From: Alphaproteobacteria bacterium
GTDB lineage: Bacteria; Pseudomonadota; Alphaproteobacteria; TMED109
DNA length: 44,219 nt
NCBI GenBank assembly: GCA_029247025.1
Contig: JAQWLZ010000013.1
Coordinates: 1-44,219, forward strand
Direction: 5' to 3'
In this document: piece after piece, positions 1-9,481 of the stretch
Position numbering within the stretch: position 1 is the first letter of the stretch
How the letters are laid out: each line of letters begins with the position of its first letter
The notes under the pieces: model-generated
The model's database searches: none
Seen by the model: the letters and a program-made list of their open reading frames with translations, nothing else
What the model was told of the DNA's origin: nothing
Translations under genes and position numbers: made by a program

Positions 1-666
1 GGCCGTGTTGCAGATATTCATAATTTACTGAAAGATTCAAATTTACATATTGTTAAGGAATATTTTTATAGAGTGAATCATCAACTCTTAGCTATTGAAG
101 GAGCTAGTATATCAGATATAGTAAACGTATGTAGTCATAACCAAGCCTTATCTCAATGTAGAAATTTTATAAATAATAATAACTTATCTCCTATTATAAT
201 GGGGGATACAGCGGGATCAGCTGCTTATATAGTAAAAAATAATGATATTAAATATGCTGCTATAGCATCAAGTTTGGCAGGAAATATTCATGGTTTAAAA
301 ATATTATCTTCTGATATACAAGATTCGAAAAATAATATTACTCGGTTTATAGTTCTTAGCGCAGAATCGAATGATCCAGAACCTGATGACGGATTAATTC
401 TCACCAGTTGTATATTTACTCTTAGAAATATACCGTCATCTTTATATAAAGCATTAGGTGGTTTTGCTACAAATAGGGTCAATATACTAAAACTAGAGAG
501 TTATATGATAGGAGAGAGTTTTACTTCTGCTCAATTTTATATAGATATTGAGGGACATCCTGCAAACCCTTCAGTGAAAATGGCCTTAGAAGAACTAGGT
601 TTTTTTTCCAAAGAAGTAAGAATTCTCGGGGTGTATAAAGGAGATAAAAATAGAGAAAAAAAATAA
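1..666 (+). CDS. pheA: Prephenate dehydratase, C-terminal part (5' end outside window)
   Basis: Cytoplasmic enzyme that converts prephenate to phenylpyruvate in phenylalanine synthesis. The frame is open from base 1, so the gene starts upstream; an internal GTG at 73 is not the start. The visible 221 residues hold the end of the catalytic domain, including the TRF motif (NNITRFIVLS), followed by a C-terminal ACT domain carrying YKALGGFATNRVN and the KLESY signature, then FYIDIEGH. The ACT domain is the usual site of phenylalanine feedback inhibition, so allosteric control is expected from the family. Monofunctional, with no chorismate mutase visible in the part seen. It converges on nudC with a 4-base gap. 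Confidence 0.95.
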   Translation, partial: GRVADIHNLLKDSNLHIVKEYFYRVNHQLLAIEGASISDIVNVCSHNQALSQCRNFINNNNLSPIIMGDTAGSAAYIVKNNDIKYAAIASSLAGNIHGLKILSSDIQDSKNNITRFIVLSAESNDPEPDDGLILTSCIFTLRNIPSSLYKALGGFATNRVNILKLESYMIGESFTSAQFYIDIEGHPANPSVKMALEELGFFSKEVRILGVYKGDKNREKK

Positions 667-670
667 TATT

Positions 671-1561
671 TTATGCTAACCAGTCTTTTATTAATCTTCG
701 CGCTATAGAAATCTTACCTGGCATTTTAAATTTAGAGTTTTCTGGGCTTGATTTTAAAAAATCTTTTGTATACCAAGAAGCATTTTCTAATTCTTGATAA
801 TTTACATTAAGCGATGTATCTAGAGCTTCGGCATGAAAACCTAACATTAATGAAGAAGGAAAAGGCCAAGCTTGTGAATATCTATATTGAATATTAGTTA
901 TTTTTACACCTGTTTCTTCGTATGTTTCTCTCTTAACTGCATGCTCAATTGTTTCACCATGTTCCACAAATCCAGCCAAAGTAGAATGCATTCCCTCTGG
1001 CCAAAATTTCTGTCTCCCTAATAAGCAGCTATCTTTATATGTAATTAACATTATTACAGCGGGATCTAATCTGGGGAAAACTTTATTTCTACATTTATTA
1101 TTTAAACAAACTCTTGAATTACCTGAATCGTCACTTTTTGAGATAGATCCACAAATTCCGCAGTAAATATTTTTTTTATGCCAGTAGTTTATTCCTTGAG
1201 CAGTGGTAAGAAAAGTTAAGTCTGACTTATTAAGTAAAGGATTAAGAGTTCTTAGATCATAATAGGATTTAATATGTTCATCTGTATCATCTATATTTAT
1301 TGAAAAATAAAAAGAACCTTTTAATACTCCAAGGAATATTAATGATTCATTGTTTAGCATTAAATCATATGCTTCCTTACCTGAGCACCATATTGCATAA
1401 TAATTTGTTTCATTAATTTTTTTAACAGAAAATTTATTTTGCCATATTTTTGCTAATTTTATTTTATTTATATCAAAGTCTTTATGATCTAAAATATGCC
1501 CCTCTCTTAGATGAGAGGCCTTATCAACAGTATCATAATTCATAAATAAATTATTTTTCAT
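671..1561 (-). CDS. nudC: NADH pyrophosphatase / NAD-cap hydrolase NudC
   Basis: Nudix hydrolase that cleaves NAD(H) to NMN(H) and AMP and, in the family, removes NAD caps from RNA. The 296-residue protein has a zinc ribbon with Cys at about 134, 137, 152 and 157, a Nudix box at about 197-219 (GFVEHGETIEHAVKRETYEE, then TG), and the NudC-specific SQAWPFP motif just after it (229-235). That last motif separates NudC from other Nudix enzymes, so the family call is firm. The ATG start is followed by a poorly conserved N-terminal domain typical of the family. It is transcribed toward pheA and away from the SRP RNA/dnaX block. Confidence 0.95.
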   Translation of the reverse strand: MKNNLFMNYDTVDKASHLREGHILDHKDFDINKIKLAKIWQNKFSVKKINETNYYAIWCSGKEAYDLMLNNESLIFLGVLKGSFYFSINIDDTDEHIKSYYDLRTLNPLLNKSDLTFLTTAQGINYWHKKNIYCGICGSISKSDDSGNSRVCLNNKCRNKVFPRLDPAVIMLITYKDSCLLGRQKFWPEGMHSTLAGFVEHGETIEHAVKRETYEETGVKITNIQYRYSQAWPFPSSLMLGFHAEALDTSLNVNYQELENASWYTKDFLKSSPENSKFKMPGKISIARRLIKDWLA

Positions 1562-1641
1562 TTAAAACCCATTAAATTAAATAATTATTTTATCTAAATA
1601 TAGTAAGATAATCAATTTATCTAAATATATTTTAAGATCTG

Positions 1642-1670
1642 CTTGGAACTAATTAATAATTGTTTATAGT
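1642..1670 (+). promoter_or_regulatory. Probable sigma-70-type promoter of the SRP RNA gene
   Basis: A CTTGGA element at 1642-1647 and a TATAGT element at 1665-1670 are separated by 17 bases, and the first base of the folded SRP RNA (G at 1677) lies seven bases past the -10 element. The spacing fits a housekeeping promoter and agrees with an independently placed RNA start. Inference from sequence only. Confidence 0.6.
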
Positions 1671-1676
1671 ATATAT

Positions 1677-1769
1677 GGGAGATCGTTATGGACGTGTCTT
1701 TTGTGAATTCGGTCAGGTCTGAAAAGAAGCAGCCGTAGCATTCTGTTCACGGGTTGTTTCGGTCTCCTT
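1677..1769 (+). ncRNA. ffs: Signal recognition particle RNA, small bacterial (4.5S) type
   Basis: RNA scaffold of the signal recognition particle, binding the M domain of Ffh. The conserved core lies at 1711-1734: GGTCAGGTCT, a tetraloop, then AGAAGCAGCC, which carries the asymmetric loop and AGCAGCC strand bound by Ffh. The ends pair: GGAGATCG at 1678-1685 with CGGTCTCC at 1760-1767 (one G-U pair), closing a hairpin of about 93 nt with a short T tract after it. The apical tetraloop is GAAA (1721-1724) with a U-A closing pair, where the commonest form is GGAA; both are GNRA loops. A good promoter sits just upstream. dnaX begins within about 35 bases of its end. Confidence 0.93.
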
Positions 1770-1801
1770 TCAATTATATACATAAGTTGAAAGATTTTAT
1801 T

Positions 1802-3454
1802 TTGGATAATGGTCAAGAAAATATAGATAAAGTATCTGTAAAAGATGCTAATTCTGGTGAATATAGAGTATTAGCTCGAAGATATAGACCTAAAACTTTT
1901 GATAATTTAATAGGACAATCTGCTACTGTAAGAATTCTCAGCAATGCTTTTGATTTAAATAGAATAGCGCATGCTTTCTTGTTTACCGGTGTTAGAGGGG
2001 TAGGTAAAACTACTGCGGCTAGGATTGTTGCTAAAGGTTTAAATTGTTTAAAAAATAATCATCCTACTATTGCTCCTTGCGGTGTTTGCGAATCATGTAT
2101 AGCTGCACAAAATGATAGACATGTAGATATTATAGAAATAGATGCTGCATCGCATACAGGTGTAGACGATATGAGAGAGCTTACAGAAGGTGTTAGATAT
2201 AAACCATCTGTCGGTAGGTTTAGAATTTACATTATAGATGAAGTACATATGCTATCTAATCAGGCTTTTAATGCTTTACTTAAAACCTTAGAGGAACCAC
2301 CTGATCACGCCAAATTTATATTTTGTACAACAGAGATTAGAAAAATACCTATTACTGTATTATCCAGATGTCAAAAGTATGACCTAAGAAGAGTTTCTAC
2401 ATCAGAAATAATTAGTCATTTAAAAATGATTTGTGAAAATGAAAAAGTCACAATCGATTCTGAATCTTTAAATTTACTTTCTAGATCAAGTGAGGGTAGC
2501 GTGAGAGATTCATTAAGTCTTTTAGACCAAGCAATAAGTATTGGTAAAAGTAATATTAAAGCTGAAGATGTTAAATCTATGTTAGGGCTTTCAGATAAAT
2601 CTAAATTATGGGACTTATTTGACTCTCTTATGGAGGGTGATCCTATAAAAGTCATCAATTGCTTTGAAACTTTACTAAATGATGGCTCTGATCCATTTTT
2701 AATAATAGAAGAATTAATGCTTATTTGTCATAACGTAACAAGAGCTATTGCTGTGCCAAGTTTAGATATGTCACAAAGTATGTCTGAGTTTGAAGCAAAT
2801 CGAGCAATTAATAGTGCTAAAAATTTGAATATTCCTTCTGTAAATAAGTGCTGGCAAATATTGTTGAAAGGACAAACAGAAATACAATCAACGTATTCTA
2901 TAAAAGAGGCGACTGAAATGATTCTTTTAAGAGTAACGTATGCTGCAAACTTGCCTGATCTTACAGATTTGATTGAAAAATCAAACCTAATAAAAAAAAA
3001 ACCTAAATTAACTAATCCTCTTGAAAATAATATTTTAAGTGAAAATGATAAAAATTCTAATATAGATGATTCTTATGATTTGAGTACTTTTGATAAACTA
3101 TTAGAGTTTGTAAAAAACAATAAAGAATTATCATTATATACTATACTTATAGATCAAATAAGAATGGTTGAGTATAAGCCTTATAATTTAAAAGTTAGTT
3201 TTGTTAAGAAAGAATATAATGATTTTTTAAATACTATAAATAGAACTTTGTTAAAATTAACCAAGAAAAATTGGAAAATTGAAGTTTTAAAAGAAAAAAA
3301 TAAAGCTAATTCAATTACAGAAAAGGCCGAAATTGAAGCAGAAAATAAAAAGAATAAACTTAAGGATAATATTATTGTAAAATCTATACTCAATGAATTT
3401 CCTGAGTCAGAGATTATTGAAGTGAAAAATTTAGAAGATAATGAAAAGGGATAG
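1802..3454 (+). CDS. dnaX: DNA polymerase III clamp-loader subunits gamma/tau
   Basis: AAA+ ATPase of the clamp loader, which loads the sliding clamp and couples the replicative polymerases. The conserved start of the family is EYRVLARRYRPKTF; Walker A is GVRGVGKTT, followed by a four-Cys zinc module (CLKNN...CGVCESC), Walker B DEVHML, and sensor/arginine-finger segments (TVLSRCQKYDLRR, SVRDSLSLLDQ). The frame is open back to a TTG at 1754, but that lies inside the SRP RNA, so a TTG at 1802 (weak GAAAG upstream) or 1787 is more likely; no ATG is available. The region after the ATPase core is short and Lys/Asn/Glu-rich. An A10 run at 2992-3001 falls at the core/tail boundary (see findings). 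It is followed closely by ybaB and recR. Confidence 0.93.
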   Translation: MDNGQENIDKVSVKDANSGEYRVLARRYRPKTFDNLIGQSATVRILSNAFDLNRIAHAFLFTGVRGVGKTTAARIVAKGLNCLKNNHPTIAPCGVCESCIAAQNDRHVDIIEIDAASHTGVDDMRELTEGVRYKPSVGRFRIYIIDEVHMLSNQAFNALLKTLEEPPDHAKFIFCTTEIRKIPITVLSRCQKYDLRRVSTSEIISHLKMICENEKVTIDSESLNLLSRSSEGSVRDSLSLLDQAISIGKSNIKAEDVKSMLGLSDKSKLWDLFDSLMEGDPIKVINCFETLLNDGSDPFLIIEELMLICHNVTRAIAVPSLDMSQSMSEFEANRAINSAKNLNIPSVNKCWQILLKGQTEIQSTYSIKEATEMILLRVTYAANLPDLTDLIEKSNLIKKKPKLTNPLENNILSENDKNSNIDDSYDLSTFDKLLEFVKNNKELSLYTILIDQIRMVEYKPYNLKVSFVKKEYNDFLNTINRTLLKLTKKNWKIEVLKEKNKANSITEKAEIEAENKKNKLKDNIIVKSILNEFPESEIIEVKNLEDNEKG

Positions 3455-3458
3455 CTAA

Positions 3459-3776
3459 ATGAAAAATATGCTAAATATGCTTAAACAAGCACAAGAAATG
3501 AAATCTAACTTTGCAAAGTTAAAACAAAATATTGAAAATACGTTTTTTTTTGGAGAGAGTTCTGATGGCTTTGTAAAAGTTAAAGTAAACGGTAAAGGAT
3601 TATTAGTTGATTTATCAATTCTGTATGAGGATAATAAAAGTATGGCTCAGGTCCAGGAATCAGTGAAGTATGCGTATTCAGATGCTAAAAAAAAGTCAGA
3701 TGAATTTTGTGAGTCTGAAATGAATAAAGCAACTGGAGGAATGTCTTTACCATTTGATATGAAATCATTTTTATAA
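3459..3776 (+). CDS. ybaB: Nucleoid-associated protein, YbaB/EbfC family
   Basis: Small 105-residue DNA-binding protein of the YbaB/EbfC family, which forms dimers and coats DNA. The start MKNMLNMLKQAQEMKSNFAK and the end ATGGMSLPFDMKSFL match the family pattern (an N-terminal helix rich in K/Q and a C-terminal GGM-(S/P)-LP-F segment). An AAGGG ribosome site lies ahead of the ATG. It starts four bases after dnaX and ends one base before recR starts, the common bacterial dnaX-ybaB-recR arrangement, so co-transcription is very likely. Its exact role is not settled in most bacteria; the position suggests a link to replication or repair. Confidence 0.93.
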   Translation: MKNMLNMLKQAQEMKSNFAKLKQNIENTFFFGESSDGFVKVKVNGKGLLVDLSILYEDNKSMAQVQESVKYAYSDAKKKSDEFCESEMNKATGGMSLPFDMKSFL

Positions 3777-3777
3777 T

Positions 3778-4380
3778 ATGGAATCAAAAGAAATAAAAAA
3801 CTTGATAACATTAATGGCTAAAATACCTGGATTAGGCCCAAGGTCAGCTAGACGAAGTGTTTTAAATTTAATTAAGAATCCTGAAAAATTAATGTTACCT
3901 CTTGCTAAAGCTCTTATTCAAGTTTCTGAAAATATAAAACTATGTTCCATATGTGGTAATATAGACTCGGACCATATTTGTGGAATATGTAAGGATGATA
4001 AAAGAGATAAAAAAATTATTTGTGTTGTTGAAGACCTAACTGATTTATGGGCGTTAGAACGATCTAACACTTATAAAGGCTGTTATCATATTCTGGGAGG
4101 CGTATTAAGCGCTATAGATGGAATAAATCCGGAAGATTTGAGAATTAAAGAGTTAATTAATAATATTAAAGAGAATGATGTTGAAGAAGTTATTTTAGCT
4201 ACCTCTGCTACGTTGGCTGGACAAACAACTAGTTTTTATATAACTGATTTAATTAAAGATATGAATGTAACTGTTTCAAGATTAGCTCAAGGGATACCAA
4301 TAGGAGGTGAACTGGATTATCTAGATGATGGTACTATTGGAGCAGCAATAGATTCGAGAAAAATTCTAAATAGTAAATAA
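3778..4380 (+). CDS. recR: Recombination mediator protein RecR
   Basis: Acts with RecF/RecO to load RecA at gaps during recombinational repair. The 200-residue protein has an N-terminal helix-hairpin-helix (KIPGLGPRSARR), a C4 zinc finger with Cys at about 56, 59, 68 and 71 (CSICG...HICGIC), and a Toprim domain beginning near residue 80 (ICVVEDLTDLWALE). The C-terminal segment SRLAQGIPIGGELDYLDDGT is the conserved Walker-B-like/wrap-around region. The length is standard. It is the last gene of dnaX-ybaB-recR and converges on rmuC with a two-base gap, leaving no room for a separate terminator. Confidence 0.97.
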   Translation: MESKEIKNLITLMAKIPGLGPRSARRSVLNLIKNPEKLMLPLAKALIQVSENIKLCSICGNIDSDHICGICKDDKRDKKIICVVEDLTDLWALERSNTYKGCYHILGGVLSAIDGINPEDLRIKELINNIKENDVEEVILATSATLAGQTTSFYITDLIKDMNVTVSRLAQGIPIGGELDYLDDGTIGAAIDSRKILNSK

Positions 4381-4382
4381 AT

Positions 4383-5450
4383 TTATTTTTTATCCAATTT
4401 TTTTCTTAAATTAACTCTAGTTTTATCAGGAATATTTTTAGCCTTAATATTTTCCATAGCCCCTAGGTCTGATATTTTTTTTATTTGAGGCATAATCCTT
4501 TTTTCTATAGAATTAATTAATTTATCATAATTATCTCCCGCTGTTTCTATCCCTTTTTTTATTCCATCTATATAACTGAAGAATTTTAGTATCCTTAATT
4601 GTAATTCCTGAGAATGAAGGGCTATCTCCTTTACATTTTTTGCAAGGCTTGCCTGTTGCCAATTAAAAGATATTCCTTTCAATAAGGCAATAAGAGTAGC
4701 AGGTGTGCATATTAATACTTTATTTTTTAGAGCATTTTCAAAGATATTTGGGTCAAATTTAGTAGCTGCTGTAAAGAAATGATCACCTGGTATAAACATT
4801 ATGACAAAATCTATATCTCCTTCTATGGCATTTTGATATTCTTTCTGTCCTAACAACTTTGCTGTATTTTTAATACTAATTGCATGTTTTTTAAGTTTTT
4901 CATTCTTCTCTTCTTCTGAATTAGCCTCGGTATATTCTATATAAGATGACAATGGTGTCTTCGCATCTATAGCTAAAGAACGGTTTCCTGGTAAATGTAT
5001 TATCGCATCTGGTCTTCCGCCATTATTAGATAATTCTTTTTGTAAATTAAAGTCAACATGTTCAGACATTCCTGCTAATTCTAAAATTCTTTTAAGTTGA
5101 ACTTCTCCCCATTTTCCTCTTAATGTAGGAGAGCGAAGGGCTTGTTCTAATTGACGCGTACCATTAGCTAGAATATCTACTTGTTCTGACAGTCTTCCGT
5201 ATGACTCAATTCTATTTTTTTCTATATCATTTACACTATTATTAAGCGTTTGTAGTTGAGTAGTAAGAGGTTCTATTAAATCAGAAATCCTTTTTTCACG
5301 AAAATCTAATTCTGTTTCATTATTAATAGATTTTAAGTTATTTTTCATTATATCAAATAATTTTTTTTGTATTAAATAAATTACTAAACTAAAAATTGAT
5401 AGGATGAATATACCAATTCCTATTATAATTAATAAATTTATATCATTCAT
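4383..5450 (-). CDS. rmuC: DNA recombination protein RmuC
   Basis: RmuC-family protein, linked by genetics to limiting inversions between short repeats; its C-terminal part belongs to the nuclease-like fold class. The 355-residue protein starts with a single membrane anchor (about residues 4-27, LLIIIGIGIFILSIFSLVIY), then a predicted coiled coil (about 30-100), then the RmuC domain with LRSPTLRGKWGEVQLKRILE, RPDAIIHLPGNRSLAIDAKT and FVIMFIPGDHFFTAA. These segments are diagnostic. It is shorter than the E. coli protein, as is usual in alphaproteobacteria. It is transcribed divergently from def across a 106-base gap in which I see no clear operator. Confidence 0.93.
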   Translation of the reverse strand: MNDINLLIIIGIGIFILSIFSLVIYLIQKKLFDIMKNNLKSINNETELDFREKRISDLIEPLTTQLQTLNNSVNDIEKNRIESYGRLSEQVDILANGTRQLEQALRSPTLRGKWGEVQLKRILELAGMSEHVDFNLQKELSNNGGRPDAIIHLPGNRSLAIDAKTPLSSYIEYTEANSEEEKNEKLKKHAISIKNTAKLLGQKEYQNAIEGDIDFVIMFIPGDHFFTAATKFDPNIFENALKNKVLICTPATLIALLKGISFNWQQASLAKNVKEIALHSQELQLRILKFFSYIDGIKKGIETAGDNYDKLINSIEKRIMPQIKKISDLGAMENIKAKNIPDKTRVNLRKKLDKK

Positions 5451-5556
5451 AGTTTAACCTATTGATAAGTTAATATATATTTTACATTTCTAATGTATTT
5501 GTTTAATTAATATAGAGATAGTTTTAATTATATAAAAGTAATAGAAAATTTTTATA

Positions 5557-6078
5557 ATGAGTATACTTAATTTAGTTTATGCACCTGCAACAGTTTTAGA
5601 GAAAAAAGCTCATGAAGTTAAGAATATTGATAAATCTCTAAAAAGCTTTGTTAATAATATGTTTGAGACAATGTATAAAAATAATGGGGTTGGTTTAGCA
5701 GCTCCTCAAGTTAATGAGTCTTTGCAAGTCATAGTTATGGATTGTTTTAATAAGAATAAAGAATCTAATCCACTAGTATTATTGAACCCAAAAATAATAA
5801 ATCAATCAGATACTTGTAAAGAATATGAAGAGGGATGTTTATCTTTTCCTGACCATTATTTTTCAATTTCAAGACCAGAATCTCTTAACGTAAAATTTTT
5901 AGATTTGGAGGGAAATAAAAAAGAAGTTTTTTTTACTGGTTTTGAAGCGGTCTGCGTTCAACATGAGATAGACCATTTATCAGGTACTTTATTTACTTCT
6001 TATATATCTAGATTGAAGCGCCAAATTATTTTAAAAAAAATGCAAAAATTCAAGAAAAATATAAATAAATCTATATAA
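5557..6078 (+). CDS. def: Peptide deformylase
   Basis: Metalloenzyme that removes the formyl group from the N-terminal methionine of nascent proteins. All three family motifs are present in 173 residues: GVGLAAPQ (44-51), EGCLS (92-96, Cys94 a metal ligand) and HEIDH (136-140, His ligands and the catalytic Glu). It is followed seven bases later by fmt, so the enzymes that remove and add the formyl group are encoded together, as in many bacteria. The ATG at 5557 has only a weak ribosome site, but homology begins immediately after it. Confidence 0.97.
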   Translation: MSILNLVYAPATVLEKKAHEVKNIDKSLKSFVNNMFETMYKNNGVGLAAPQVNESLQVIVMDCFNKNKESNPLVLLNPKIINQSDTCKEYEEGCLSFPDHYFSISRPESLNVKFLDLEGNKKEVFFTGFEAVCVQHEIDHLSGTLFTSYISRLKRQIILKKMQKFKKNINKSI

Positions 6079-6085
6079 TTTATTT

Positions 6086-7021
6086 ATGAATAATAAACTT
6101 AAATTATGTTTTATGGGTAGTCCTGAATTTGCTGTTCCAAGCATAAAAGTACTTCTAGAAGCAGGACATGATATTCCTGTAGTTTTTACCCAAGAACCTC
6201 GGCGTGCAAATAGAGGAAAAAAAATTCAAAAACAGCCTGTGCAAGAATTTGCTGAAAAAAATGGAATAAAGGTTATTTTTGGCAACCAGTTAAAGGATAA
6301 TATTGAATTTTTAAAAAGATTAAATTTAGACATGATTATTGTTGTGGCTTTTGGTTATATCTTACCTAAAGAATTAATAAAAATACCTAGATATGGCTGT
6401 ATAAATTTACATGCTTCTTTGTTGCCTAGATGGCGAGGGGCTGCTCCTATTCAAAGAGCTATAATGGCAGGAGATCAAAATACTGGAATAAGCATAATGT
6501 TAATGGATGAAGGGTTAGACACAGGAGATGTTATTTCTAAAATTACTATTGCCATAAAAGATAGGCAAAATAATGGCGATTTAACAAACTTATTATCTCT
6601 GAGAGGAGCAAAATTATTAAATGCAAGTATTTTAAAATTTGCAAATAATATAATTAAGGCAACTCCTCAGATATCTGAAGGCATAACTTATGCAAAAAAA
6701 ATATTTAAAGAGGATGAAATTATAGATTGGGATAGAAAAGCAGATGAAATATTAAATCAAATTAGGGCATTAAGCCCAATTCCTGGTGCTAAATGTCGAA
6801 TAAAAGATGAAAATATTAAAATATTAGATGCCGAGGTCATTAAAAATAATGTAAAAGCAAAAAACGGTATAATAGTTGATGAACCTATTATCGTTAAATG
6901 TTCTGAAAATGCAATTAAGATAAATATTCTTCAAAGACCTGGAAAGAAGATTATGTCTTCAAAAGAAGTGTTGAATGGTTGGAAAATACTTAAAGGACAT
7001 AAAATGCAAAATATTAGTTAG
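6086..7021 (+). CDS. fmt: Methionyl-tRNA formyltransferase
   Basis: Transfers a formyl group from 10-formyltetrahydrofolate to initiator Met-tRNA. The 311-residue protein begins FMGSPEFAVPSIKVLLEAGH, carries the folate-binding/catalytic signature NLHASLLPRWRGAAPIQRAI (catalytic Asn and His), and then DEGLDTGDVI. The C-terminal domain includes the conserved IRALSPIPGAK segment. It overlaps nothing and follows def by seven bases. Downstream it converges on the arsC-like gene with a two-base gap. An AT-only inverted repeat spans that junction (7024-7040), but it has no GC stem. Confidence 0.97.
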   Translation: MNNKLKLCFMGSPEFAVPSIKVLLEAGHDIPVVFTQEPRRANRGKKIQKQPVQEFAEKNGIKVIFGNQLKDNIEFLKRLNLDMIIVVAFGYILPKELIKIPRYGCINLHASLLPRWRGAAPIQRAIMAGDQNTGISIMLMDEGLDTGDVISKITIAIKDRQNNGDLTNLLSLRGAKLLNASILKFANNIIKATPQISEGITYAKKIFKEDEIIDWDRKADEILNQIRALSPIPGAKCRIKDENIKILDAEVIKNNVKAKNGIIVDEPIIVKCSENAIKINILQRPGKKIMSSKEVLNGWKILKGHKMQNIS

Positions 7022-7023
7022 GT

Positions 7024-7359
7024 TTAAAATAATATTTTAACATTTTCTGGAGGACGACCTATAATTGCCCTATTTCCTTTAACTACTATAGGTCTTTCTA
7101 ATAAAATTGGATTTTCAGATATCTTTTTAATTAATGTTTCTTCATCTGCGTCTTTTAAATTTAACTTCCTATAAATGTCTTCATTTTTTCTAATAATATT
7201 ATTTGCCGTAGTATCTAATTTTTTAATTATTATTCTAATTTCTTCTGCGGATAAGGGGTTTTCTAAATATAGAGTTATATTGTGTTTTATATTATTCTCT
7301 ATAATTATATTTAGAGTTTCTCTAGATTTAGAACATCTAGGATTATGAAATATTTGCAT
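7024..7359 (-). CDS. arsC: Arsenate reductase-like protein (ArsC/YfgD type)
   Basis: Thioredoxin-fold protein of the glutaredoxin-dependent ArsC family, 111 residues. The N-terminus IFHNPRCSKSRETL contains the catalytic Cys9; IIRKNEDIYRKL and ERPIVVKGNRAIIGRPPE supply the three arginines expected in the active site. The overall pattern is closest, from memory, to the YfgD subgroup rather than plasmid ArsC. No ars repressor or arsenite pump lies nearby, so it may serve a general redox role; arsenate reduction is the family activity, not demonstrated here. It is transcribed convergently with fmt and divergently from the ABC permease across 62 bases. Confidence 0.85.
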   Translation of the reverse strand: MQIFHNPRCSKSRETLNIIIENNIKHNITLYLENPLSAEEIRIIIKKLDTTANNIIRKNEDIYRKLNLKDADEETLIKKISENPILLERPIVVKGNRAIIGRPPENVKILF

Positions 7360-7421
7360 TTTTTTCCTAAAATTTATAATTATATGTGTACTTTTAAATA
7401 CTTAGCAGGTTATATATTCTC

Positions 7422-8234
7422 ATGCAAAAAAATAAGTTTATTTCTGAAAGGTCTGTCAAAGGTTTTAATAGTGTTAATTGGATAGGCGTTTACACTCTTT
7501 TTAAGAGAGAAGTAAACCGTTTTTTGAAAATATATCTGCAAACTATATTAGGACCTGCACTAACCACACTTCTTTTTTTAATTATTTTTGCATTGGCTTT
7601 AGGTAGATCTTCAAAATTAGTAGAAGATATACCTTTTTTAGAGTTTCTAGCACCAGGCTTAATTGTAATGGCAATGATACAAAATGCTTTTGGTAATACT
7701 TCGTCATCGTTATTAAGCGCAAAAGTTGCAGGAAATATAACTGACTTATTACTACCTCCACTTACATCTATAGAATTTGCATCAGCTTTTTTAGCTGGTG
7801 CGATATGTAGAGGATTATTTGTAGGTATATCTGTTTCTTTGTTAGTTTTAATTTTTGTTCCTTTAAAAATATATAATCCTTTTTTTCTTATATATTTTTC
7901 TATTTTATCCTGTTCATTTATGGGTTTGTTAGGTTTAATTACTGGAATATGGTCAAGTAAATTTGAACATGTTGCGGCTATAACAAATTTTATTGTTACT
8001 CCCTTATCGCTATTATCAGGAACATTTTATTCTATAAAGATTTTACCAGATAATTTTTATTTTATTAGCCAATTAAACCCATTTTTTTATATGATTGATG
8101 GTTTTCGTTTTTCAATGATAGGTTATTCAGACTCTAATATTTACCTTGGAGCTATAATTCTTCTTGTACTAAATATATTTTTATATATGGCTTCAATAAT
8201 AATGTTAAAGACAGGGTTTAAGCTAAAAGCATAA
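7422..8234 (+). CDS. ABC-2 type transporter permease without adjacent ATPase
   Basis: Integral membrane protein of 270 residues with about six hydrophobic segments (first TILGPALTTLLFLIIFALAL) and the ABC-2 permease pattern also seen in YadH and NodJ proteins: a conserved short N-terminal cytoplasmic helix, LEFLAPGLIVMAMIQNAF, and LSGTFYSIKILP followed by NPFFYMIDGFRFSMIGY near the end. The family exports lipids, polysaccharides or drugs when paired with an ATPase. No ATP-binding subunit is encoded in this window, so the partner must be elsewhere. It lies 68 bases ahead of argD; whether it shares a transcript with the arg genes is unclear. Confidence 0.85.
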   Translation: MQKNKFISERSVKGFNSVNWIGVYTLFKREVNRFLKIYLQTILGPALTTLLFLIIFALALGRSSKLVEDIPFLEFLAPGLIVMAMIQNAFGNTSSSLLSAKVAGNITDLLLPPLTSIEFASAFLAGAICRGLFVGISVSLLVLIFVPLKIYNPFFLIYFSILSCSFMGLLGLITGIWSSKFEHVAAITNFIVTPLSLLSGTFYSIKILPDNFYFISQLNPFFYMIDGFRFSMIGYSDSNIYLGAIILLVLNIFLYMASIIMLKTGFKLKA

Positions 8235-8302
8235 AATATAATTTTATTTAGCCTTTTTATTTTTTATCTGATATATTCATAGACTTTTTATAGAGGTTTT
8301 AA

Positions 8303-9481
8303 ATGAAAAATGTAATGCCAACATATGGCCGGATAGACCTTTCATTCGAGAGAGGAGAGGGCCCTTGGCTATTTACAAAGGACAAAAAAAAATATTTGGA
8401 TTTTGCTACAGGTATAGCTGTAAATACTTTAGGTCATTCTAATGAAGAGTTAATTAATACTCTTATTAGTCAATCAAAAAAATTGTGGCACACTTCTAAT
8501 CTATATAATATAAAACCGCAAGAAGAACTAGCAGAGCTTATATGTAAAAACTCATTTGGAGAAAGTGTCTTTTTTTGTAATTCAGGGGCTGAGGCATTAG
8601 AAGGAACAATCAAATTATGCAGAAAATATCATTTTAATAATGGTGATGAGAATAAAACAGAAATTTTAGTTTGTAGTAGTGCTTTTCATGGAAGAACACT
8701 GGGTACCCTTGCAGCAGGTGATAATGAAAAACATAGAGAAGGCTTTGGTGTAAACACAAATGGTTTCACAAGAGTTCCTTTTGGAGATATTAACGAAATA
8801 AAAAAATTTATAAATAAAAATACTGCGGCTATTTTAGTTGAGCCTATTCAAGGGGAAGGTGGAATTAATAGATCTCCTAAAGGCTTTTTAAAAAAATTAA
8901 GAATATTATGTTCAGAAAAAAAAGTACTCTTAGCTTTGGATGAGGTGCAAACAGGTATCGGAAGAACAGGAAAATTATTTGCGCATCAATGGGCAGATAT
9001 AATTCCAGATGTGATGGCAATTGCTAAAGGTCTAGGAGGAGGGTTTCCTATTGGTGCAGTTGTAGCTAAAAATAAAGCTGCATTGGGAATGTCTCCAGGA
9101 ACACATGGGTCTACTTTTGGTGGAAATTTTTTAGCCTCTAGTGTTGCTAAATCAGTAATTTCTCAAGTGATTGAGAGAGGTTTTTTAGATAATGTAACTA
9201 AAATTGGTAATAAATTATTTCAAGAGATTGAAGTTCTTTCTCAAAAATATCCTTCTATACTTAAAGGGGCTAGAGGTAAAGGACTTATGATAGGTATAAT
9301 ATGTAACGTGAGTAATATTGATTTATGTAAAAATTTAAGAGAAAAGGGTTTGTTGAGTGTTCCTGCTGGAAATAATGTACTACGTTTTTTACCTCCTTTA
9401 AATATTAAACTTGAACATGCTGATAAGTGTATAGAAATAATGAAAAAAACATTAGATAAAATGATGGTAGAACAAGTATGA
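8303..9481 (+). CDS. argD: Acetylornithine aminotransferase
   Basis: PLP-dependent class III aminotransferase that forms N-acetylornithine in arginine synthesis; members often also act on N-succinyl-diaminopimelate in lysine synthesis. The 392-residue protein has FFCNSGAEALEGTIKL (phosphate binding), LDEVQTGIGRTG (Asp213 to the pyridine nitrogen) and the Schiff-base lysine in AIAKGLGGGFPIGA (Lys242). TFGGNFLASSVAKSV completes the signature. An AGAGG ribosome site precedes the ATG. The stop codon overlaps the argF start (ATGA), indicating translational coupling. An A9 run at 8384-8392 does not break the frame. Confidence 0.93.
   Translation: MKNVMPTYGRIDLSFERGEGPWLFTKDKKKYLDFATGIAVNTLGHSNEELINTLISQSKKLWHTSNLYNIKPQEELAELICKNSFGESVFFCNSGAEALEGTIKLCRKYHFNNGDENKTEILVCSSAFHGRTLGTLAAGDNEKHREGFGVNTNGFTRVPFGDINEIKKFINKNTAAILVEPIQGEGGINRSPKGFLKKLRILCSEKKVLLALDEVQTGIGRTGKLFAHQWADIIPDVMAIAKGLGGGFPIGAVVAKNKAALGMSPGTHGSTFGGNFLASSVAKSVISQVIERGFLDNVTKIGNKLFQEIEVLSQKYPSILKGARGKGLMIGIICNVSNIDLCKNLREKGLLSVPAGNNVLRFLPPLNIKLEHADKCIEIMKKTLDKMMVEQV

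Follow-up and report, generated by a model that had tools for sequence, protein, structure and literature searches.

The dnaX gene on the window, i.e., the whole stretch of 44,219 nucleotides of alphaproteobacterial DNA that was analysed, contains a run of ten A residues that is probably a programmed slip site. Slippage of RNA polymerase on this tract would allow a single gene to encode both tau and a shorter, gamma-like form of DnaX. The tract is in frame at the junction of the gamma and tau parts of the protein, it is followed at once by stops in both other reading frames, and both properties are kept in tau-bearing relatives. Comparable tracts are present in dnaX of many other Alphaproteobacteria.

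The dnaX gene and its A10 tract

The identity of the gene was confirmed by a match to NF006585 (E 5e-195, above the cut-off), together with matches to PF13177, PF12169 and PF12362. The mechanically called open reading frame starts at TTG 1754, but this codon was rejected as the dnaX start, since it falls inside a small bacterial SRP RNA (1677-1771) located directly upstream of dnaX and since stops are present at that place in three relatives. TTG 1802 is the likeliest start instead, from which tau is computed to be a protein of 550 aa and 62.3 kDa. Within positions 1-9000, Rfam returned the SRP RNA alone, without any dnaX element. The gene is followed by two ORFs that we take to encode a YbaB-like and a RecR-like protein. 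The features of interest are the following:

1802..3454, + strand: dnaX tau reading frame (TTG start, 550 aa), based on profile matches and on the choice of start
2555..2977, + strand: DnaX domain III (PF12169), the last part common to gamma and tau (residues 268-408 of the 1754 ORF)
2992..3001, + strand: A10, the putative slip tract, in the codons ATA AAA AAA AAA CCT; A9-A12 in 7/7 tau-bearing clade members
3004..3006, + strand: TAA in the -1 frame (reached by gain of one A), predicted product of 401 aa
3009..3011, + strand: TAA in the +1 frame (reached by loss of one A or gain of two), predicted product of 402 or 403 aa
3083..3424, + strand: tau-specific C-terminal domain (PF12362), missing from the predicted slipped products (residues 444-557 of the 1754 ORF)

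The tract lies 15 bases past domain III and about 80 bases ahead of PF12362, with a T directly before it and CCT directly after it. An initial annotation had pointed to an in-frame run of ten A residues where gamma and tau should part, with a stop close behind in each of the other frames, and the sequence bears this out: the -1 frame continues as ACC TAA and the +1 frame as CTA AAT TAA, which leaves one and two sense codons, respectively, between tract and stop. The accompanying expectation that a slip in either direction yields a protein of about 400 residues agrees with the products computed for dnaX mRNAs carrying A8, A9, A11 or A12, which range from 400 to 403 aa and from 44.6 to 45.0 kDa.

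In the proposed mechanism, RNA polymerase would slip on the A10 and thereby generate dnaX mRNAs that differ in their number of A. Transcripts with 10 or 13 A would be translated into tau, of 550 or 551 aa, and those with any other number would lead to a stop one or two codons on and thus to a gamma-like subunit of 400-403 aa. The latter would be devoid of the tau C-terminal domain and is proposed to act as a subunit of the clamp loader. We infer that the polymerase and not the ribosome is the slipping machine, that gamma is produced in some yield, and that it is used in the clamp loader.

The tract in the genome and family of the window

Taken alone, the sequence of the window is no proof of such a mechanism, because a run of at least ten A or ten T is unremarkable in it: one was seen against a mean of 3.3 in dinucleotide shuffles. 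The caution in the initial annotation that this DNA is AT-rich was appropriate, and the A9 that it mentioned in argD (8384-8392) is indeed present. An explanation without programmed slippage would fit these observations. The A10 would then be a side effect of AT bias and of lysine codons in a linker that tolerates such a run, and slippage on it would be low or harmless; AAA accounts for 84% of the Lys codons in the genome of the window (G000). However, long A runs are avoided in the coding DNA of this genome. In a sample of 20 stretches, with 317,737 bases and 272 mechanical CDS, runs of at least ten A are depleted compared to synonymous resampling (4 seen, 15.6 expected), also when only the part beyond codon 30 is considered (2 seen, 10.6 expected). 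Runs of A9 are near expectation (21 seen, 23.2 expected), and runs of A7 and A8 are as frequent as, or more frequent than, the resampling predicts. In a passage by Baranov and colleagues (PMC1088944), such depletion of long runs is taken as selection against slippage, with replication slippage as a possible contributor.

Conservation at the level of the genus was rejected as stand-alone proof, as 4 of the 25 tracts of at least ten A in G000, that of dnaX included, recur in both G002 and G003. Some further homopolymeric runs were observed in this genus. An A10 near the start of a gene that is presumably hydantoinase/oxoprolinase-like (L031, L156, L218) and a T10 in an apparent signal peptide (L006, L154, L147) are both kept in the same three genomes, and an A17 right behind an ATG in G000 (L204; contig C62, 11063-11079) is a candidate phase-variable or slippage-dependent start.

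DnaX matches were found in 26 of the 28 genomes of the window's family, although some are weak and probably represent other clamp-loader genes. Seven tau-bearing loci, the window included, were compared; they come from the AT-rich genera g1, g2, g3 and g6 and form one clade on the tree of the DnaX core. Another member of this clade, L059, is cut by a contig end and was unusable. All seven loci carry a long tract (A10, A12, A12, A10, A12, A9 and A10), followed by stops no more than 2 codons (-1 frame) and 6 codons (+1 frame) away. These distances are shorter than for the remaining codons in the tau parts of these loci (p=0.004, for seven related rows). Mixed AAA/AAG codons or a lost run, which had been named beforehand as contrary outcomes, occur in none of them. 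The linker surrounding the tract is scrambled or poorly conserved among these relatives, and in the g6 member the tract is located some 18 residues further along the linker, where it encodes LKKN and not KKK. The retention of both the run and the off-frame stops supports the suggestion of the initial annotation that slippage at the A tract may allow the gene to make gamma in addition to tau. Synonymous resampling of the linkers of this clade, with the amino acids fixed, gave a probability of 0.39-0.78 per sequence for a run of at least nine A, which is a weak test when applied to single dnaX linkers, as the lysines themselves belong to the signal.

In the genera g4, g5 and g7, DnaX is about 410 aa long and keeps a tail of some 20 C-terminal residues; PF12362 is absent from the three proteins of these genera that were tested. 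A run of at least nine A was found in only 1 of the 10 family members with such a tau-less DnaX, against 7/7 tau-bearing loci, which is difficult to reconcile with a mere by-product of base composition. Such a run is also absent from all seven dnaX loci of the GC-rich g8. The tau-bearing clade, g4/g5/g7 and g8 belong to one family by search, but the DnaX tree does not unite them in a single clade. In several family-level groups, DnaX proteins were observed with an open frame of about 380-470 aa, in which the tau domain is mostly or wholly missing and a short C-terminal tail, often FPxxxI/V, is present (L047, L049-L056 and L058; also L251, L259, L260, L262, L266 and L268). These short forms look as though the tau domain had been lost several times.

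A tracts in dnaX across the Alphaproteobacteria

A search of the class gave a dnaX match in 289 of 289 genomes. Outside the window's family, 101 loci were selected (28 best-scoring ones, 30 from small genomes, 40 more mostly from small genomes, and 3 named ones), of which 98 could be mapped to the linker and L250, L267 and L269 were dropped. Runs of at least nine A within 75 codons of the end of the DnaX core were counted and binned by the GC content of the locus. They are present in 4/14 loci below.34, in 5/15 at.34-.40, in 11/38 at.40-.54 and in 0/31 at.54 or above. For the 53 mapped loci at.34-.54, the longest A run falls into two heaps: 35 loci have A2-A6, 2 have A7, none has A8, and 16 have A9-A10. 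When families f48 and f90 are added, 83 tracts of at least nine A are found in 22.7 kb of dnaX linker at this GC content. The dnaX core (117 kb) and the dnaX tail (33 kb) are both free of them, and the other mechanical ORFs of the same loci have 4 over a total of 228 kb. The density in the linker is hence about 200 times that of other ORFs. Off-frame stops are nearer to the tract than to other codons in the class sample as well (p=2e-5, 15 loci with a GC content of at least.34).

At least one dnaX locus with such a tract occurs in 17 family-level groups, that of the window counted. Some families are mixed in tract state, with f22, f74, f24 and f98 being inconsistent. On a DnaX tree of 136 rows, from which incomplete and short rows were dropped, the trait changes at least 16 times, and 10 of these changes are forced by well-supported branches.

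Three families illustrate the constraint on the site. In f48 (perhaps the gut group RF32), for which a match was found in 47 of 49 genomes, A9 or A10 is present in 30 out of 30 loci examined. Its codons GTA AAA AAA AAC TCT show no synonymous variation at their places: GTA is used in 28/28 cases (expected share.16), AAA in 30/30 at both positions, AAC in 25/25 (.43) and TCT in 29/29 (.25). By contrast, synonymous codons are exchanged freely at the Glu, Leu, Pro and Thr positions shortly before them. As the f48 rows are related, the codon probabilities may not be multiplied into a p-value, but the invariant codons clearly stand out against their neighbours. Stops follow in all 30 loci after 1-2 codons in the -1 frame and after 2-6 codons in the +1 frame, a situation that applies to 6.7% of other tau codons. 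In f90, with a match in 38 of 43 genomes, 28 of the 30 loci examined have at least nine A, and one of the two without such a run is unique among the loci in its GC content of 60%. The site appears relocated in several f90 loci, where the run 8 residues past the end of the core is truncated or gone, with an A9 some 10 residues further on. Here too, off-frame stops are nearer than at other codons (p=4e-9, 28 related rows). In f139, both genomes have an A10 (L245, 1525-1534; L310, 2643-2652). The zero frame closes 5 codons behind it, for a length of about 400 aa, and PF12362 is encoded in the -1 frame (E about 1e-13). With the tau domain placed in the -1 frame behind the A10, production of tau in this family would require a slip, unless the same error is present in both genomes.

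Conserved A tracts that are also found in the coaBC linker (see below) and in the oxoprolinase-like gene would be in line with an A10 that merely follows from lysine codons and AT bias. That explanation does not account for the enrichment across the class at moderate GC content, the frozen codons of f48 or the apparently slip-dependent tau of f139, and is considered improbable.

In Escherichia coli, gamma arises by -1 ribosomal frameshifting on A_AAA_AAG in dnaX. A similar shift on A_AAA_AAA, ending at the stop at 3004-3006, would concern the same gene, place and outcome, and would yield the identical 401-aa product. The window has the slippery heptamer A AAA AAA in the proper phase, in a tract that lacks AAG, and the f48 tract contains A AAA AAC. 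In f48, the flanks outside the A run, with GAC on the 5' side and AAC and TCT on the 3' side, are frozen as well, which would be compatible with a ribosomal signal. The two stimulators known from E. coli were not found, however, in agreement with a reservation already made in the initial annotation. No Shine–Dalgarno-like element was seen by eye upstream of the window tract, and none is present within 30 bases upstream of the tract in any of the 30 f48 loci. Nor is there a stable downstream hairpin, with z-values of 0.39 in the window and of -1.29 to -0.02 in four relatives; in f48, folds of the 60 bases downstream are shuffle-like (mean z -0.18, 3/30 below -2). Moreover, the tracts are 9-12 long although 7 would suffice, and the +1 stop, which is of no use to a -1 shift, is kept close in the window clade and in f48. 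The missing hairpin and Shine–Dalgarno element point towards slippage by RNA polymerase, as in Thermus, over frameshifting of the E. coli type. Together with tract length and the kept +1 stop, they place the polymerase first, and a ribosomal slip appears rather unlikely.

Known systems, coaBC and the role of slippage

Transcriptional slippage on an A9 in dnaX of Thermus thermophilus was reportedly described by Larsen et al. in 2000. The window's dnaX resembles that gene in that at least nine A stand in frame where the gamma and tau parts meet, tau is encoded by a single open frame, and stops are near in both other frames. Tract and stops are also retained in the tau-making relatives (7/7, the window included). 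In contrast to Thermus, the host is an AT-rich marine alphaproteobacterium, the tract is an A10, and slippage is here deduced from sequence. The Thermus case is also among the slippage examples in PMC1088944. A reversed, two-ORF layout of dnaX belongs to the GeneTack dnaX cluster of Antonov and colleagues, which, in the part of the paper dealing with this cluster, contains nine 10-A genes and for which the Chlorobi are named for shorter tracts (PMC3711429). The alphaproteobacterial f139 loci (L245, L310) have this layout, with an A10, gamma in frame 0 and tau in frame -1. The window's dnaX is of the one-ORF type, as its zero frame does not end just past the tract.

A third route to gamma is post-translational. 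In Caulobacter crescentus, which belongs to the same class and has the same need for a gamma form, gamma is derived from DnaX by ClpXP processing, according to the relevant passages of PMC5422525. If tau were likewise subject to partial proteolysis here, the tract would be incidental; this leaves both the conservation at the nucleotide level and the off-frame stops unexplained, and is very improbable for the window's gene. The GC-rich dnaX loci examined here are without an A tract, and its absence from all 31 loci at.54 GC or above suggests that slippage and proteolysis may be alternatives between lineages.

Programmed slippage by RNA polymerase thus remains the preferred reading for the window. 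Slippage in dnaX as such is already known from Thermus and has been predicted elsewhere, but the putative slip site is unexpectedly widespread within the Alphaproteobacteria. Twelve dnaX passages of the review PMC5009743 do not name an alphaproteobacterial slip, and no report of dnaX slippage in this class was found in the titles or abstracts of the papers retrieved from the open-licence literature.

A second candidate slip gene in the window's clade is coaBC. An A10-A12 tract is present between the CoaC and CoaB domains in 9/9 clade members found, six from g1 and one each from g2, g3 and g6 (L388-L396; in G000 on contig C45, 5725-6915). The encoded residues vary, and stops occur in both other frames within 6 codons. 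Outside the clade, the tract was found in 1 of 10 genomes of g4, g5 and g7, counted per genome with a second match from one genome left out, and in none of 7 genomes of g8. There are two readings: the clade employs the slip device repeatedly, or A tracts accumulate in its linkers for some different reason. The latter would weaken the case for the window itself, leaving the class-wide case unaffected. It is tentatively possible that this clade generally exploits A tracts between domains for slippage-based expression, dnaX being just one case, and that slip-made gamma is old, or often regained, in the Alphaproteobacteria. In that event, the position of the coaBC tract between the domains, with both off-frame stops near, makes CoaC alone a candidate product beside CoaBC. 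Slip-made gamma would then be absent from GC-rich lineages, with proteolysis instead in one of them, Caulobacter.

The need of cells for gamma was long a matter of dispute (reviewed in part of PMC5009743). A slip site that has apparently been held or regained in 17 family-level groups, also at moderate GC content and with synonymous codons frozen, suggests that a short DnaX is worth keeping. As Caulobacter is well studied and makes its gamma by ClpXP, the switch between slippage and proteolysis may be approachable by comparing relatives.
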